Assembly: GCA_016873935.1 (NCBI GenBank)
Contig: VGVT01000021.1
Coordinates: 1 to 41,328, forward strand
Direction: 5' to 3'
Source of the DNA: Betaproteobacteria bacterium
Lineage (GTDB): Bacteria; Pseudomonadota; Gammaproteobacteria; Burkholderiales; Thiobacillaceae
DNA length: 41,328 nucleotides
In this document: in pieces, positions 4,275-12,848 of the stretch
Layout: the number at the start of each line of letters is the position of its first letter
Position numbering within the stretch: position 1 is the first letter of the stretch
The notes under the pieces: model-generated
What the model was told of the DNA's origin: nothing
Database searches by the model: none
Seen by the model: the letters and a program-made list of their open reading frames with translations, nothing else
Made by a program: the position numbers and the translations under genes

Positions 4275-4353
4275 CTACTTCTTCCTTGGCGGCAACAGGT
4301 CGGTGATGGTGCCTTCCGCCATCTCGGCGGCGAAGCAGATCGTTTCCGACAGG
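4275..4353 (-). pseudogene. Fragment of a second lpdA 3' end
   Basis: Bases 4281-4353 match 5182-5254, the last codons of the intact lpdA, at 72 of 73 positions. Read on the minus strand it still encodes the C-terminus (AEMAEGTITDLLPPRKK) and keeps an in-frame stop, TAG at 4277-4275; the intact gene ends RKR-TAA. Identity stops abruptly at 4353. The next bases, 4352-4366 (GGTGAGGGAGCCCGG), match 6633-6647 in the repeat-derived linker of lpdA. This suggests a remnant of a duplicated lpdA that lost its middle by recombination between short repeats. The two copies flank the toxin-antitoxin pair as direct repeats. Confidence 0.8.
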
Positions 4354-5175: not shown

Positions 5176-6960
5176 TTATCGCTTCCTCGGCGGCAACAGG
5201 TCGGTGATGGTGCCTTCCGCCATCTCGGCGGCGAAGCAGATCGTTTCCGACAGGGTGGGGTGGGCGTGGATGGTGAGGCCGATATCCTCCGCCGTGGCGC
5301 CCATTTCGATGGCGAGCACCGCTTCGGCGAGCAGCTCGCCGGCGTTGATGCCGACCAGGCCGGCGCCGATCACCCGCTTGCTTTCCTTGTCCAGAATGAG
5401 CTTGGTCAGGCCCTCGGTGCGGGCGATGGAGAGGGCGCGGCCGCTGGCGGCCCAAGGGAAGGCGCCTTTTTCGATGTCGATGCCCTTGGCCTTGGCTTCG
5501 GTCTCGGTGAGGCCCACCCAGGCCACTTCCGGGTCGGTGTAGGCGACGGAGGGGATGACCAGGGCCTGGAACTCCACCTTGTGGCCGGCGATGACCTCCG
5601 CCGCCACCTTGCCCTCGTGCACCGCCTTGTGGGCCAGCATGGGCTGGCCGACGATGTCGCCGATGGCGAAGATGTGCGGGACGTTGGTGCGCATCTGAGT
5701 GTCCACGGCGATGAAGCCGCGCTCGTCGACAGCGACCCCGGCGGAATCAAGACCGAGGCTCTTACCGTTGGGGCGGCGACCGATGGCTACCAGCACCCGG
5801 TCGTACTTTTCCGTGCTCAGGGTCGTTTGCGTACTCTCGCCGGCCTTCAGGGTGACGTGGATGCCGTCCTTCTTCGCTTCCATGGCGGTGACGCCGGTAT
5901 TCAGCTTGATCGCCTCGAAGCGCTTTTCCATGCGCTTGTACAGGGGCCTGACCAGATCGGCGTCGCAGCCGGGGATGAGCTGGCCGCCCAGTTCCACCAC
6001 GGTGACCTTGCTGCCCAGGGCATCGTAGACCGTGCCCATCTCCAGGCCGATGATGCCGCCGCCGATGACCAGCAGGCGCTTGGGGATGTCGGCCAGGGCG
6101 AGGGCGCCGGTGGAGCTCATGACGCGCGGGTCGTCGGGCTGGAAGGGCAGTTTGATGGCCTCGGAGCCGGCGGCGATGATGGCGTGGTCAAAGGAAATCG
6201 TTTGCGTGCCGGCATCGCCGGTCACGCTCAGGCTGTTGGGGCCGGTGAAGGTGGCCACGCCATGCACCACGCTGACCTTGCGTTGCTTGGCGAGCTGGGC
6301 GAGGCCGCCGGTGAGCTTGCCCACCACGTCCTTCGCCTTCCACTCCCGCAGCTTGTCCAGGTCCACCTTGGGCTTCGTGAAGCTGACGCCGTGTTCGGCC
6401 ATCTCTTCCGCCTCGGTGATGAGGCGGGCGGTGTGCAGCAGGGCCTTGGAGGGAATGCAGCCGACGTTGAGACAGACCCCGCCCAGGCTGGGATGGCGTT
6501 CCACCAGCACCACCCGCAAACCCAGGTCGGCGGCGCGGAAGGCGGCGGTGTAGCCGCCGGGGCCGGCGCCGAGGACCAGGACCTGGGCGTGAAGATCCGC
6601 GTTGTCTCCCTCTCCCCCCGGGAGAGGGTTGGGGTGAGGGAGCCCGGCTGGAGGAGCCGCACGCGTTGTGCCCTCACCCCCGAGCCCTGTATGCCCCTTG
6701 TGTACCCCCACTGGGGAGGAGGGGAGGGAGGCCTCCGAGCTCAGCATCAGTATCGGCGAGCCTTCCGACACCTTGTCGCCCACTTTCAGCAGCAGCTTCT
6801 CCACCACTCCGGCCTGGGGGCAGGGGATGTCCATCGCCGCCTTGTCGGATTCGACGGTGATGAGGGCGGCGTCCTGGGCGACGGTGTCGCCGGGGCTGAC
6901 CAGAATGTCGATGACCTGGACGTCCTTGAAGTTGCCGATGTCGGGGACCTTGATTTCCAT
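5176..6960 (-). CDS. lpdA: Dihydrolipoamide dehydrogenase (E3) with N-terminal lipoyl domain
   Basis: E3 of the pyruvate dehydrogenase complex, reoxidising dihydrolipoyl groups with NAD+. Residues 1-77 are a lipoyl domain with lipoyl-lysine K40 (VESDKAAMD). Residues about 121-594 are the flavoprotein: FAD motif VLGAGPGGYTAAF, redox pair C163 and C168 (GGVCLNVGCIPSK), NAD motif VIGGGIIGLEMG, and dyad H567 and E572 (HAHPTLSE). E3 with its own lipoyl domain is common in betaproteobacteria. The linker, residues 78-120, is abnormal: it is made from a palindromic repeat and contains LPHPNPLPGGEGDN. The ATG at 6960 starts the lipoyl domain exactly; a GTG at 6990 would add ten residues and cannot be excluded. 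It is the last gene of aceE-aceF-lpdA, about 100 bases after aceF. Confidence 0.93.
   Translation of the reverse strand: MEIKVPDIGNFKDVQVIDILVSPGDTVAQDAALITVESDKAAMDIPCPQAGVVEKLLLKVGDKVSEGSPILMLSSEASLPSSPVGVHKGHTGLGGEGTTRAAPPAGLPHPNPLPGGEGDNADLHAQVLVLGAGPGGYTAAFRAADLGLRVVLVERHPSLGGVCLNVGCIPSKALLHTARLITEAEEMAEHGVSFTKPKVDLDKLREWKAKDVVGKLTGGLAQLAKQRKVSVVHGVATFTGPNSLSVTGDAGTQTISFDHAIIAAGSEAIKLPFQPDDPRVMSSTGALALADIPKRLLVIGGGIIGLEMGTVYDALGSKVTVVELGGQLIPGCDADLVRPLYKRMEKRFEAIKLNTGVTAMEAKKDGIHVTLKAGESTQTTLSTEKYDRVLVAIGRRPNGKSLGLDSAGVAVDERGFIAVDTQMRTNVPHIFAIGDIVGQPMLAHKAVHEGKVAAEVIAGHKVEFQALVIPSVAYTDPEVAWVGLTETEAKAKGIDIEKGAFPWAASGRALSIARTEGLTKLILDKESKRVIGAGLVGINAGELLAEAVLAIEMGATAEDIGLTIHAHPTLSETICFAAEMAEGTITDLLPPRKR
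5182..5254. repeat. 73-bp direct repeat, copy within lpdA
   Basis: The lpdA 3' segment matching 4281-4353 with one mismatch. The copies lie in the same orientation about 830 bases apart and bracket the DUF433/DUF5615 pair, so recombination between them would remove that pair. Confidence 0.85.
6601..6729. repeat. Palindromic repeat forming the lpdA linker
   Basis: The plus strand reads CCCTCTCCC (6608-6616), three bases, GGGAGAGGG (6620-6628), then TTGGGGTGAGGG, with a counter-arm CCCTCACCCCC near 6671. The same architecture, CCCTCTCCC-N2-GGGAGAGGG-N2-GGGGTGA, occurs between napA and napG at 37651-37677. Here it lies inside an open reading frame on the minus strand, contributing PHPNPLPGGEG. 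It replaces the Ala/Pro linker usually found between the lipoyl and FAD domains. Confidence 0.8.
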
Positions 6961-8425: not shown

Positions 8426-11134
8426 TCACACGTTGACCGGGTTCGGCCGGTCGCTGTCGATGCCGTACTTCTTGATGGCCTCGGCGGCCTTGCCGGCGGG
8501 CAGGACGCCGTCGTCGGCGAGGGCCTTGAGGGCGGCCAGCACGACGTAATGGCGGTCCACCTCGAAGAAGCGGCGCAGCGCCTCGCGCGAATCCGAGCGG
8601 CCGAAGCCGTCGGTGCCCAGGGTCACGAAGCGGCGATGCACGTAGGGCCGGATCTGGTCGGGATAGGCGCGCATGTAGTCGGTGGCGGCGACGATGGGGC
8701 CGTCCGTGCCGTCCAGGCACTGCTCGACGAAGCTCACCTTCTGCTTCTTGTCCGGATGCAGCAGGTTCCAGCGATGGGTCTCCTGCGCCTCCCGGCGCAG
8801 CTCGTTGAAGCTGGTGGCGCTCCAGACGTCGGCGGCGACGCCCCAGTCGCGTTCCAGCAACTCGGCGGCGGCGATGACCTCGTGCAAGATGGTGCCGGAG
8901 CCCATAAGCTGGACACGGGGTTTGTTCTTACCCTTCCCCTTTATGCCCTTCAGGGTGCTTCCCCCTTCACCCTTCACCAAGAGGTAAAGCCCCTTCAGGA
9001 TGCCCTTCTCGGCGCCCTTCGGCATGGCCGGGTGGCTGTAGTTCTCGTTCATCACCGTCAGGTAATAGAACACGTCCTCCTGCTCCCGCACCATGCGGCG
9101 CAGCCCGTCCTGGATGATGACCGCCAGCTCGTAATGGAAGGTGGGGTCGTAGCTGACGCAGTTGGGGATGGTGGCCGCCATCAGATGCGAGTGGCCGTCC
9201 TCGTGTTGCAGGCCTTCGCCGTTCAGCGTCGTGCGGCCGGCGGTGGCGCCGAGCAGAAAGCCGCGCGCGCGCGAATCGCCGGCGGCCCAGGCCAGGTCGC
9301 CGATGCGCTGGAAGCCGAACATCGAGTAGTAGATGTAGAAGGGGATCATCTGCACGCCGCTGGTGCTGTATGCAGTGGCGGCGGCGAGCCAGGAGCTGAA
9401 GGCACCCGCCTCGTTGATGCCTTCTTCCAGAATCTGCCCGCCCTTGTCCTCGCGGTAGTACATGACCTGATCGGAATCCACCGGCTCGTAGAGCTGACCG
9501 ACGGAGGAGTAGATGCCCACCTGGCGGAACAGGCCTTCCATGCCGAAAGTGCGGGCCTCGTCGGGGACGATGGGCACGATGTGGCGGCCGATGGCCTTGT
9601 CGCGCAGCAGGCTGGTAAGAATGCGCACGAAGGCCATGGTGGTGGAGATCTCGCGCTCGCCGGTGGCTTCCAGCATGGCCTGGAAATTGGAGAGCGGCGG
9701 CGCCGCCAGGGGTTCGGCCTTGACGCGACGGCGCGGCATGTAGCCGCCGAGGGCGGCGCGGCGGGCCTGCAGGTACTTCATCTCCGGGCTGTCGTCGGCC
9801 GGCCGATAGAACGGCAGGTTGGGCAGGTCTTCATCGGAGATGGGGATGCGGAAGCGGTCACGGAAGGCGCGCAGGTCCTCCAGGGCCATCTTCTTGGCCT
9901 GGTGCGTCGGGTTCTGCGCCTCGCCGGAGGCACCCATGCCATAGCCCTTGATGGTCTTCGCCAGGATCACCGTGGGCTGACCGGTGTGCTTCGACGCCGC
10001 CGCGTAGGCCGCGTAGATCTTGTGCGGGTCGTGGCCGCCCCGGTTCAGGCGCCAGATGTCCTCGTCGGACATGGCGGCGACCAACTCCTTCAGTTCGGGG
10101 TACTTGCCGAAGAAGTGCTCGCGCGTGTAAGCGCCGCCCTTGGCCTTGAAGTTCTGGTACTCGCCGTCGACGCATTCCTCCATGCGCTTCTGCAGCAGAC
10201 CCTGGCTGTCCATGGCCAGCAGCGGATCCCAGTAGGAACCCCAGATGACCTTGATGACGTTCCAGCCGGCGCCGCGGAAGGCGGCTTCCAGTTCCTGGAT
10301 GATCTTGCCGTTGCCGCGCACCGGACCGTCCAGGCGCTGCAGGTTGCAGTTGACCACGAAGATCAGGTTGTCCAGCTTCTCCCGCGAGGCCAGGGTGATG
10401 GCGCCCAGGGATTCCGGCTCGTCGGTCTCGCCGTCGCCGAGGAAGGCCCAGACCTTGCGTCCGGAGGTGTCGGCGATGCCGCGGTCGTGCAGGTAGCGGA
10501 GAAAGCGGGCCTGGTAGATGGCCTGGATGGGCCCCAGGCCCATGGAGACGGTGGGGAACTGCCAGAACTCCGGCATCAGCCAGGGATGCGGGTAGGACGA
10601 CAGGCCGCCGCCGGCGGACTCCTGGCGGAAATTGGCGAACTGCTCCTCGCTGATGCGGCCTTCGAGGAAGGCGCGTGCGTAGACGCCGGGTGCGGAGTGG
10701 CCCTGGAAGTAGACCAGGTCGCCACCGCGCGAAGCGTCGATGCCATGAAAGAAGTGGTTGAAGCCGACTTCGTAGAGGGTGGCGGCGGACTGGTAGCTGG
10801 CGATGTGGCCGCCCACACCCGGCGCCTTCTCGTTCGCGCGCATGACGCAGGCCACCGCGTTCCAGCGGATCAGGCTCTTGATGCGGGTCTCGATGGCCAC
10901 GTCGCCTGGATGCTTTTCCTGTCGGTGCACCGGGATGCTGTTCACATAGGCGGTGGTGGCGTTGTAGGGCAGGTAGGCGCCGGAACGGCGCGCCTTGTCG
11001 ATGAGGCGCTCCAGCAGGAAATGGGCGCGCTCGGCGCCTTCTTCCTCGATGACGGCGGCAAGGGCGTCCAGCCATTCGCGGGTTTCCTGGGGATCGATGT
11101 CGGGCGTGCTGCCCGGCGTGTGGCTATTCGGCAT
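8426..11134 (-). CDS. aceE: Pyruvate dehydrogenase E1, homodimeric type
   Basis: Thiamine-diphosphate-dependent decarboxylation of pyruvate and reductive acetylation of E2. The 902-residue length and single-chain layout match the homodimeric AceE family. The ThDP motif is visible as FLGDGETDEPES ... VVNCNLQ (about residues 230-265), and the C-terminus ends with the family-typical VLGTDGFGRSDSRE-like segment. An unusual 12-residue segment, [12 protein letters not shown] at residues 724-735, lies between the strands GLYLLVKGE and RVQLMGSGTIL, where E. coli AceE is shorter; its DNA is a repeat also found in pepA. First gene of the operon; ATG at 11134 with CGGAG about 10 bases upstream. A 187-base divergent region separates it from pepA. 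Confidence 0.96.
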   Translation of the reverse strand: MPNSHTPGSTPDIDPQETREWLDALAAVIEEEGAERAHFLLERLIDKARRSGAYLPYNATTAYVNSIPVHRQEKHPGDVAIETRIKSLIRWNAVACVMRANEKAPGVGGHIASYQSAATLYEVGFNHFFHGIDASRGGDLVYFQGHSAPGVYARAFLEGRISEEQFANFRQESAGGGLSSYPHPWLMPEFWQFPTVSMGLGPIQAIYQARFLRYLHDRGIADTSGRKVWAFLGDGETDEPESLGAITLASREKLDNLIFVVNCNLQRLDGPVRGNGKIIQELEAAFRGAGWNVIKVIWGSYWDPLLAMDSQGLLQKRMEECVDGEYQNFKAKGGAYTREHFFGKYPELKELVAAMSDEDIWRLNRGGHDPHKIYAAYAAASKHTGQPTVILAKTIKGYGMGASGEAQNPTHQAKKMALEDLRAFRDRFRIPISDEDLPNLPFYRPADDSPEMKYLQARRAALGGYMPRRRVKAEPLAAPPLSNFQAMLEATGEREISTTMAFVRILTSLLRDKAIGRHIVPIVPDEARTFGMEGLFRQVGIYSSVGQLYEPVDSDQVMYYREDKGGQILEEGINEAGAFSSWLAAATAYSTSGVQMIPFYIYYSMFGFQRIGDLAWAAGDSRARGFLLGATAGRTTLNGEGLQHEDGHSHLMAATIPNCVSYDPTFHYELAVIIQDGLRRMVREQEDVFYYLTVMNENYSHPAMPKGAEKGILKGLYLLVKGEGGSTLKGIKGKGKNKPRVQLMGSGTILHEVIAAAELLERDWGVAADVWSATSFNELRREAQETHRWNLLHPDKKQKVSFVEQCLDGTDGPIVAATDYMRAYPDQIRPYVHRRFVTLGTDGFGRSDSREALRRFFEVDRHYVVLAALKALADDGVLPAGKAAEAIKKYGIDSDRPNPVNV
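8930..8965 (-). repeat. 36-bp in-frame repeat, copy in aceE
   Basis: Minus-strand bases 8965-8930 encode [12 protein letters not shown] (AceE residues 724-735). They match 12081-12116 in the aminopeptidase gene at 35 of 36 bases, in the same reading frame and the same orientation relative to the gene. The two proteins are unrelated. Confidence 0.93.
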
Positions 11135-11321
11135 GCAATGAGTCTCCGAACGAGTGGCGGGATCCCTATGCGCGGTGATCGCGATCCGGCGCGATCCGGC
11201 GTGGGTCCTGGTTTTCGTGGAACAATCGGGTTGATGGAAGCGGGCGCATTATCCGGATCGGGCGCTTGCCCGTCAATTCTTTAATACTGAGTATTCACGT
11301 TTTTAATATTAAGGTTGTCTA

Positions 11322-12848
11322 ATGAACAACTCCGCGAAAAAAACGGCTATCCCGGCGATCCTGGCCAGAGTGCAACAGAATAACGAAGTCCTCGTCCAGC
11401 GTAACGGCAAGCTTCGTCATCTGCTGAATATCCTGCCCGCCGGCACGGAATGGTTCGAGGTGCCGGACGCCGAGGCCGCCCGCGCCGCCCTGGCGCGCAA
11501 GGACAAGAAGCCCGGCGAGCTGTCGAAGTCTCCCTTGGTCCTGGAACTGCCCGGCGGCTGCCTGTCGGTCTGGCTGCGCCTGGACGAGGCGAAGCCGGTC
11601 TTCGACCGCCATGCCGCCCTGCGCCAGGCCCTGAAATCCTTGCTCGACGAGCACCCCGCGGAGCTCCACGTCGCCCTCTACGGCGCGGACGATTTCCGCG
11701 TCCGCGCCGCCGGTGAGGCCGCCTACGTGGCCTGGCTGAACGGTGCGCGCCTGCCCGCCTGGAAAAGCGAGAAGGCCCCGGCGGCACTGGAGCGGGTCGT
11801 GCTGCACGGTGTCTCCGGCCTGGATCTTAAGCGTGAGCAGGCATTGGCCGAGGGCAACACCCTCTGCCGGCAGCTCACCCTGCTGCCTCCGAACCTGCTG
11901 ACGCCGGCCACCTACCGCGAACGCATCCGCGTCCTGGCGCAGGAGGCGGGCTGGGGCATCGAGGAATACGACGTCAAGCGTCTGAAGAAACTCAAGGCCG
12001 GCGCCTTCCTGGCGGTGGCCCGGGGCAGTGGCCACGAGGACGCGGCCATCGTCAGATTGACCTACGCCGGCAAGGATCCAGGGGGAAGCACCCTGAAGGG
12101 CATAAAGGGAAAGGGTCAGCGCATCGCCCTGGTCGGCAAGGGCATCTGCTTCGACACCGGCGGGCACAACCTGAAGCCGGCGCGCTACATGCACAACATG
12201 CACGACGACATGAACGGTTCAGCCGTCGCCCTGGGCATCCTGCTGGCGGCGACCCGGATGAAACTGCCGGTCAATCTGGAAGTGTGGCTGGCCATCGCCG
12301 AGAACCACCTGTCTCCCGAGGCCTACACCCAGAACGAGGTGGTCACCGCACTCAACGGCACCACCATCGAGATCGTCCACACCGACGCCGAGGGCCGCAT
12401 GGTGCTGGCGGACACTCTGGCCCTGGCGGCGAAGGCGAAACCGCAAACCATCCTCGACTTCGCCACCCTCACCGGCAGCATGGCCACGGCCTTGGGCGAG
12501 CGCATGAGCGGCGTCATCAGCAACCGCGACGAGCTGGCGAAGCAGGCCGTGGCGGCAGGCCGGGCCTGCGGCGAGCGGGTGGTGGCCTTCCCCATGCCGG
12601 AGGATTACGACGAGGCCCTGGATTCGAGTGTGGCCGACGTCAAGCAATGCACGCTCGAAGGCGAGGCCGACCACATCCTCGCCGCCCGCTTCCTCAACCG
12701 TTTCGTCGGCGACACCCCCTGGCTGCACGTGGACCTGTCCGCCAGCCGCTGCAAGGGCGGGCTGGGCGCGGCGGGGTCGGACATCACCGGGTTCGGGGTG
12801 GGGCTGGGGCTGGAGCTGATTTCCCGAATGGCGGCGAAACAGGACTGA
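11322..12848 (+). CDS. pepA: Leucyl aminopeptidase family M17
   Basis: A cytoplasmic two-metal exopeptidase of 508 residues. The metal and catalytic residues fall in order: K273 and D278 ([11 protein letters not shown]), D296 (HDDMNGSA), D355, E357 and R359 (HTDAEGR). The spacing matches E. coli PepA (270/275/293/352/354/356). The usual NTDAEGR reads HTDAEGR, and the MKxDMxGAA motif is altered to MHDDMNGSA, so this may be a divergent branch. Just before the metal-binding strand, residues 254-265 are [12 protein letters not shown], encoded by the repeat also present in aceE. The ATG has AAGG 7 bases upstream. It is divergent from aceE across an AT-rich stretch around 11280-11315, and aroC follows after 41 bases. 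Confidence 0.92.
12081..12116 (+). repeat. 36-bp in-frame repeat, copy in pepA
   Basis: Encodes [12 protein letters not shown] at residues 254-265 of the aminopeptidase. One base differs from the aceE copy, a silent change in a glycine codon (GGA versus GGG). It lies in a surface-loop position before the VGKG strand, where M17 enzymes normally have a short connection. Confidence 0.93.

Follow-up and report, generated by a model that had tools for sequence, protein, structure and literature searches.

The stretch analysed here, hereafter the window, comprises 41,328 nucleotides of contig VGVT01000021.1 (assembly GCA_016873935.1) from a genome of the Thiobacillaceae (G000; a draft assembly of 121 contigs), and two neighbouring genes within it share a short repeat. 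The first, aceE, lies on the minus strand at 8426..11134 and encodes the 902-residue pyruvate dehydrogenase E1, and the second, a pepA-like gene on the plus strand at 11322..12848, encodes an M17 aminopeptidase of 508 residues. Both identities, assigned in the original prediction from the sequence alone, were borne out by NCBIfam TIGR00759 and an alignment to 1l8a for AceE, and by Pfam Peptidase_M17 and an alignment to 3h8e for PepA. As that prediction also had it, the 36-mer of aceE (8930..8965, minus strand; read directly from 8965 to 8930 as GGGGGAAGCACCCTGAAGGGCATAAAGGGGAAGGGT) and that of pepA (12081..12116, plus strand) are identical at 35 of 36 bases, the sole difference, GGG or GGA, being silent (Gly), and both are translated in frame into one and the same 12-residue segment, which occupies residues 724-735 of AceE and 254-265 of PepA. 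Each 36-mer is made up of an 18-bp core, CACCCTGAAGGGCATAAA (8940..8957 on the minus strand in aceE, 12089..12106 on the plus strand in pepA), which reads ..S-TLKGIK, and of a shared G-rich context of 8 bp before and 10 bp after it. The match is not due to chance, because a 21-mer taken from the core, at three mismatches or fewer, occurs at just these two places in the whole window and not once in 100 dinucleotide shuffles. The proposal that the E. coli homologues are about 12 residues shorter held for AceE (1l8a is 12 residues shorter in this loop, in two 6-residue gaps). For PepA, the comparison was with the relative 3h8e, which lacks some 10 residues in two gaps, one of 4 and one of 6. An Rfam scan of the window matched no family.

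When the whole genome is considered, the unit that recurs outside these two genes is the central 18 bp, YACCCTGAAGGGCATAAA, and not the 36 bp. The clear copies in G000 agree over 18 bp, YACCCTGAAGGGCATRAA (with Y for C or T and R for A or G), beyond which their sequences diverge; the consensus of the element is [C/T]ACCCTGAAGGGCATAAA, with variants such as ..CATGAA. The genome was queried with a 28-mer, a 20-mer and a 17-mer of the repeat. The 28-mer, which combines the core with part of its flanks, was found at four places with up to three mismatches (reversed pattern: none), those outside the window being G000:C1:48691 and G000:C58:4396, with two mismatches each. The 20-mer was found at 15 places with up to three mismatches (reversed pattern: 0), and the 17-mer at 25 places with up to two, vs 2 for its reversed pattern; these last two counts take in native coding matches, so that the true number of elements is lower. 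The native matches, set aside by eye, read TLKGMN or TLKGIM, as in an ABC transporter or a UbiE-like protein (both named by eye) with TLKGIM or TLKGMM. Many copies are located in REP-like palindromes that seem intergenic, as judged by eye, and one such palindrome lies inside polA. The 18-mer itself, as read from its sequence, is without terminal repeats and can form only a CCC-TGAA-GGG stem of 3 bp at most. Since only the core recurs in the searches with these shorter patterns, the 36-mer is rejected as the dispersed unit. Thus, the earlier idea of a mobile 36-bp micro-element survives as far as a dispersed, apparently mobile sequence inserted in frame in coding sequence is concerned, and has to be corrected in its length; likewise, the repeat does recur elsewhere in the genome, as an 18-bp core and not as a 36-bp unit.

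Where a comparison was possible, a host repeat with the insert is exactly 18 bp longer than its empty counterpart. For instance, the host repeat TTCAAGGGGAG^GGNNNGGGTGGGGATGGG of genome G031 (^ marks the insertion site) is empty at nine places, seven of them without mismatch, and in the nine occupied copies that were read TTCAAGGGGAG is followed by the insert. Among 162 unique exact copies with flanks, 10 have an exact match to their joined flanks (11+11) within the fetched loci, which formed the search space; six of these matches are non-tandem and four correspond to tandem junctions. All 10 fall at offset zero, out of the offsets from -4 to +4 that were tried, and no target duplication is seen. 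Another empty copy, that of the host repeat at G000:C1, is present in G021 (L350), at a place that is not necessarily orthologous. Finally, tandem dimers with an 18-bp period occur at two places of G000 (C49 and C16), and differences between dimer and monomer distinguish G000 from its sister species, G015.

The sites of insertion follow a recognizable rule. It was derived from 55 copies with distinct flanks, namely the exact 17-mer places with enough flanking sequence from the surveys of 61 and 369 genomes described below, the places new in a further survey of 399 genomes lying outside this set. The first base is C or T in all 55 copies and the base before it a purine in 53, with 33 G^C, 12 A^T, 8 G^T, 1 C^T and 1 T^C junctions. 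A perfect inverted repeat of at least 8 bp spans the site in 25 of the 55, vs 15 of 437 positions drawn at random from those loci, and in a larger set of 144 copies, which includes loci from named genomes whose Y was fixed by the scan, in 31, vs 23 of 720 random positions. In this larger set the first base is T in 30 copies and C in two after A, C in 69 and T in 30 after G, T in five after C, and C in five and T in three after T. This pattern partly reflects lineage, because at least six of the G^T cases come from one Thermomicrobiales metagenome-assembled genome (MAG). The palindromes that serve as hosts are varied: GAGAG^GGG arms, CGCGCA^GGCGGG loops and others in G000 and its relatives, and GTCGGAC-TGAA-G^TCCGAC or a variant as the usual host in what is inferred to be HTCC5015 (G270). 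One 18-mer is found in different, unrelated host repeats in different groups.

The distribution of the 18-mer is sporadic. When one mismatch is allowed, matches are present in 26 of 61 genomes. In 20 of these there are between one and three, often native coding sequence; the other six can be regarded as carriers, with 14 matches in G000, 19 in G015, 14 in G024, 5 in G027, 29 in G031 and 11 in G035, and the remaining 55 hold 0-3. In the class, 8 genomes out of 369 contain the exact 17-mer, one of them 10 times; in the order, 11 out of 399 do, all belonging to three families. G000 is counted in each of the three surveys, and the reversed-pattern control gave 0 in all of them. A scan of named genomes for YACCCTGAAGGGCATAAA, in which the sequence, Y included, was fixed and some single matches may be chance, returned at least 120 stretches from several phyla. 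Among the matches listed (80 titles of the at least 120 stretches) are Thiobacillus, Hydrogenophilus, Sulfuricellaceae, Methylomonas, Methylobacter, Desulfobulbaceae, other deltaproteobacteria, a Thermomicrobiales MAG and others, with six rows each from one Thermomicrobiales MAG and from one deltaproteobacterial MAG, and no cyanobacterium. Diverged copies in 120 named loci exceed those of the reversed pattern at one mismatch (7 vs 0), two (4 vs 0), three (5 vs 1), four (25 vs 10) and five (179 vs 94). A plasmid or phage origin was discarded, a 36-nt dimer query having returned seven weak plasmid and three weak phage records, none covering 80%; the exact 17-mer occurs in seven viral stretches, four of them near-identical. 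An assembly artefact is ruled out as well, because copies are present in isolate records and in G024, a genome assembled as one contig.

From these comparisons of sequences, we conclude that the repeat is probably a dispersed mobile element of 18 bp. A more specific account can be offered only tentatively, namely that the fixed 18-nt sequence might itself be the mobile unit, inserted exactly and without target duplication, after purines and preferably at hairpins, by an undescribed trans-acting machinery that would be sporadic across phyla, and at times adding six residues to essential enzymes. The unit would be inserted as a short single strand, of DNA or derived from RNA, and the machinery would act in trans at hairpins or at other exposed single strands, G-rich heptamer tracts among them. 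In aceE and pepA, it would have landed in, or been copied between, loops that were already G-rich, and, with a length that is a multiple of three and five open frames, it would have added six residues that the enzymes tolerate.

Several observations nevertheless weigh against a mobile 18-mer. Perfect stems of 8 bp or more are missing from 30 of the 55 sites, and the predicted DNA folding energy of the joined flanks does not differ significantly from that of random positions (p 0.14). Few copies have a known empty site, namely the six non-tandem ones among 162, in fetched DNA only, and composite host repeats could be duplicated with the insert inside them, in which case the copies would not all be independent events. 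No transposition has been observed, the comparisons being between species and not between strains of the same species, and both candidate movers, Y1_Tnp and RVT_1, are without a match in the draft genome G000. Moreover, the G015 orthologue (L345, G015:C63) of the copy at G000:C1:48691 holds a different, longer insert of about 70 bp, so that this site is not a clean pair of empty and occupied alleles. The 70-bp insert has inverted repeats of its own and lies at the corresponding position of that host repeat, which suggests that the place may be an insertion hot spot.

In both enzymes, the core is embedded in a hypervariable Lys/Gly loop, which in AceE spans residues 718-740 (8915..8983, minus strand; 12-23 residues across 20 genomes) and in PepA residues 247-268 (12060..12125, plus strand; 10-22 residues across 17 genomes). 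The loops of several species of the genus are partly built of 7-bp repeats (GGGNAAN), such as the GGGGCAA repeats in L200. In self-matching, lags 7 and 14 are the highest among lags 1-15 in the aceE loop (0.42 and 0.41; lag 1, 0.39), and lag 14 is highest in that of pepA (0.39), followed by lags 7 and 1 (0.36 each). The 18 non-core bases of the 36-mer fall in these variable, partly heptamer-built Gly/Lys loops, to which the 18-mer adds six residues. The comparison with homologues partly upheld the gain or loss that had been predicted, in that the insert is present or absent between species, as an 18-bp and not a 36-bp unit. The aceE core is found in G000 only among the 20 aceE loops of the genus that were read, and is absent from AceE of G015 although the two proteins are 97% identical overall; the pepA core is shared by G000 and G015 (ALKGIK in the latter) and missing from the remaining 15 of the 17 pepA loops. 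A structure model of PepA (mean predicted local distance difference test score, pLDDT, of 69) places residues 253-264, all below 50, in a low-confidence connection between two strands, which is consistent with an exposed loop; the AceE model, with a mean of 43, is unusable.

The two copies may not be independent. A rival explanation, to which we give somewhat less than an even chance, is that the 18-mer was inserted only in pepA, and that aceE acquired its copy from pepA, which lies 3 kb from it, through a short gene-conversion or template-switching event between the similar G-rich loops. Such copying would explain why the match extends over 36 rather than 18 bp, and would fit the fact that the pepA insert is common to G000 and G015 and the aceE insert is not. 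In addition, with the aceE tract of G000 set against the pepA tract of G015, 47 of the 55 bases compared are the same; set against the pepA tract of G000, the figure is 45, and for the two pepA orthologues it is 44. Given the first of these figures, copying from one gene to the other and two separate insertions have about the same likelihood. On the other hand, aceE of G002 and G007 (L207 and L203), which is without the 18-mer, already has GTGAAGGGGGAAGGG in its loop, and because similar flanks can thus pre-exist, an independent insertion in aceE is an equally good explanation. Copying from pepA to aceE is in any case compatible with an 18-bp mobile element in pepA and in the rest of the genome.

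The original prediction had also invoked selection for a single Lys/Gly-rich reading and a mobile element that specifically adds a peptide. Neither is supported: 18 is a multiple of three, five of the six frames through the 18-mer are open, as read from the sequence, at least three of them are used in G000, and many copies reside in the REP-like, intergenic-looking palindromes already mentioned (by eye). The peptide is not fixed, because readings of the TLKGIK, HPEGHK and FMPFRV types all occur. The TLKGIK type is represented in G000 by aceE, pepA, rnhA, purE, uup and others, including SLKGMK in uup, TLRGIK in a LonC-like protease, MHTLKGIN in a DUF2069 protein, and MNTLKGIN and MTTLKGVN at the starts of rnhA and purE, respectively. 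In turn, polA reads HPEGHK, inside a REP-like tract between two exonuclease domains, and a signal-peptide-like start contains two FMPFRV units in the opposite orientation, of which G015 has one. The copies in uup, rnhA, purE, the LonC-like and DUF2069 genes and polA are to be taken as apparent coding copies and as putative insertions. The agreement in frame and strand between two genes is weak evidence for selection.

Some of these genes deserve a description in their own right. In polA (L057:1-2760, minus strand, approximately residues 370-430), the 5'-exonuclease and 3'-5' exonuclease domains are separated by a REP-like tract, PPPQPLPLRGGGAP..APSPSRGEHPEGHKGGGGGGG, that encloses the 18-mer, and in uup (L061:1-1752, plus strand, residues ~255-275) an apparent short REP-like translated insert, PPSPIEGEGLKRR, is located at the start of the second ABC domain. 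The 18-bp insert may also be present in a protein loop encoded by genes of several genera that we take to be trpF (L267, L298, L121 and L148), in which KDAAKI or KDAARI is preceded by NTLKGI or DTLKGI.

As to the mover, family searches gave no Y1_Tnp match in the carriers G000 and G035, with matches in G015, G024, G027 and G031, and no RVT_1 match in G000, G027 and G035. Neither family is an obvious driver, because each is without a match in some carriers, though either may have been active in the past. These searches bear on two further explanations. Movement of the 18-mer via an RNA intermediate and reverse transcription, which we regard as unlikely, would account for the pairing-like dependence of the first base on the preceding one (T 30 and C 2 after A; C 69 and T 30 after G), and tandem copies could come from repeated copying; however, the missing RVT_1 matches speak against it, and the first-base pattern is partly confounded by organism through the Thermomicrobiales copies. 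Still less favoured is the idea that the 18-mer is carried passively, REP-like palindromes that contain it being moved by REP-associated (Y1/HUH, RAYT-type) transposases. Many copies do lie inside such palindromes, and composite copies recur within G031 and HTCC5015, but the same 18-mer occupies unrelated host repeats in different groups, no palindromic host is obvious (by eye) for the copies in uup, aceE and pepA or for those at the starts of rnhA and purE, and two carriers lack a Y1_Tnp match. That the 18-mer is not mobile at all, but a conserved functional motif (a binding site or the peptide TLKGI) recurring by selection or chance, is highly improbable: native coding matches (e.g., a TLKGMN gene in many genomes of the family, L024, L026, L027 and L050 among them) and possible chance hits in the fixed-sequence scan of named genomes agree with it, but it is already disfavoured by exact 18-bp presence or absence in host repeats, by the reversed control of zero in 61, 369 and 399 genomes, and by the unrelated contexts.

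If the 18-mer is indeed mobile, it would be smaller than the cyanobacterial repeats that are reportedly the smallest mobile elements claimed, and would provide proteins with a direct route to gain six-residue loops without damage to the frame. It would also connect protein loop variation with REP palindromes and heptamer tracts, and would constitute a sharp, searchable system for finding the mover, with an exact sequence, a site rule, empty sites, and carrier and non-carrier relatives. The window contains other repeats as well: a 73-bp direct repeat (4281-4353 and 5182-5254) of 99% identity, its copies about 900 bp apart, the other listed repeats being more diverged, and a perfect 26-bp inverted repeat with a 13-bp loop (1648-1712; GGTGGATAAGCGCAGCGCATCCACCA), a similar sequence of which is present elsewhere in the genome (L016).

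An exact search of the literature covered, with 13-letter strings of the core on both strands, matched no paper. Insertion sequences (IS) and miniature inverted-repeat transposable elements (MITE) are characterized by target-site duplications or terminal inverted repeats; in contrast, the joined-flank matches found here are all at zero offset, 10 out of 10, and the 18 bp are without terminal repeats. Rickettsia palindromic elements, with which the original prediction drew a comparison in concept but not in sequence, are likewise inserted in frame in unrelated coding genes. They are, however, elements of about 100-150 bp with long palindromes, and the distinction from them stands, with 18 bp and a stem of at most 3 bp here as opposed to some 100 bp or more. 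REP/RAYT systems encode a Y1 transposase in the carrier, and, as stated above, no Y1_Tnp match was found in the carriers G000 (draft) and G035, whereas G015, G024, G027 and G031 have one. REP sequences are short dispersed repeats like the present one, and are described as GTAG/CGTC-tagged palindromes of 20-40 bp, with insertions reported in palindromes and coding genes (PMC3733652); the difference is that here the palindrome is the host and not the element, an 18-mer with the CCC-TGAA-GGG stem only. G-rich heptamer repeats, GGGNATC, some of them intragenic, are described for Xanthomonas and Nostoc (PMC4692102). They resemble the GGGNAAN of the AceE and PepA loops in forming tandem 7-bp G-rich tracts, but the heptamer is another one, and the likeness is to the host tract and not to the 18-mer.

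The closest precedent appears to be the small dispersed repeats (SDR) of cyanobacteria. Those that Elhai et al. are said to have described in 2008 reportedly measure 21-27 nt, are confined to a coherent cyanobacterial group, are often found within tandem heptamers or nested in other repeats, and have no known mover. The 18-mer would share with them, as they are reported, a very short length, dispersal, apparent mobility and a diversity of contexts that includes heptamer tracts and other repeats. Unlike SDR of the reported 21-27 nt and cyanobacterial range, it measures 18 bp at the empty sites found, a multiple of three, and is present in Pseudomonadota and other phyla. Finally, SDR5 is reported to be placed precisely inside the palindrome HIP1, between its third and fourth bases (PMC4390886), and SDR, of some 20 bp, are stated to be possibly mobile (PMC2884548).

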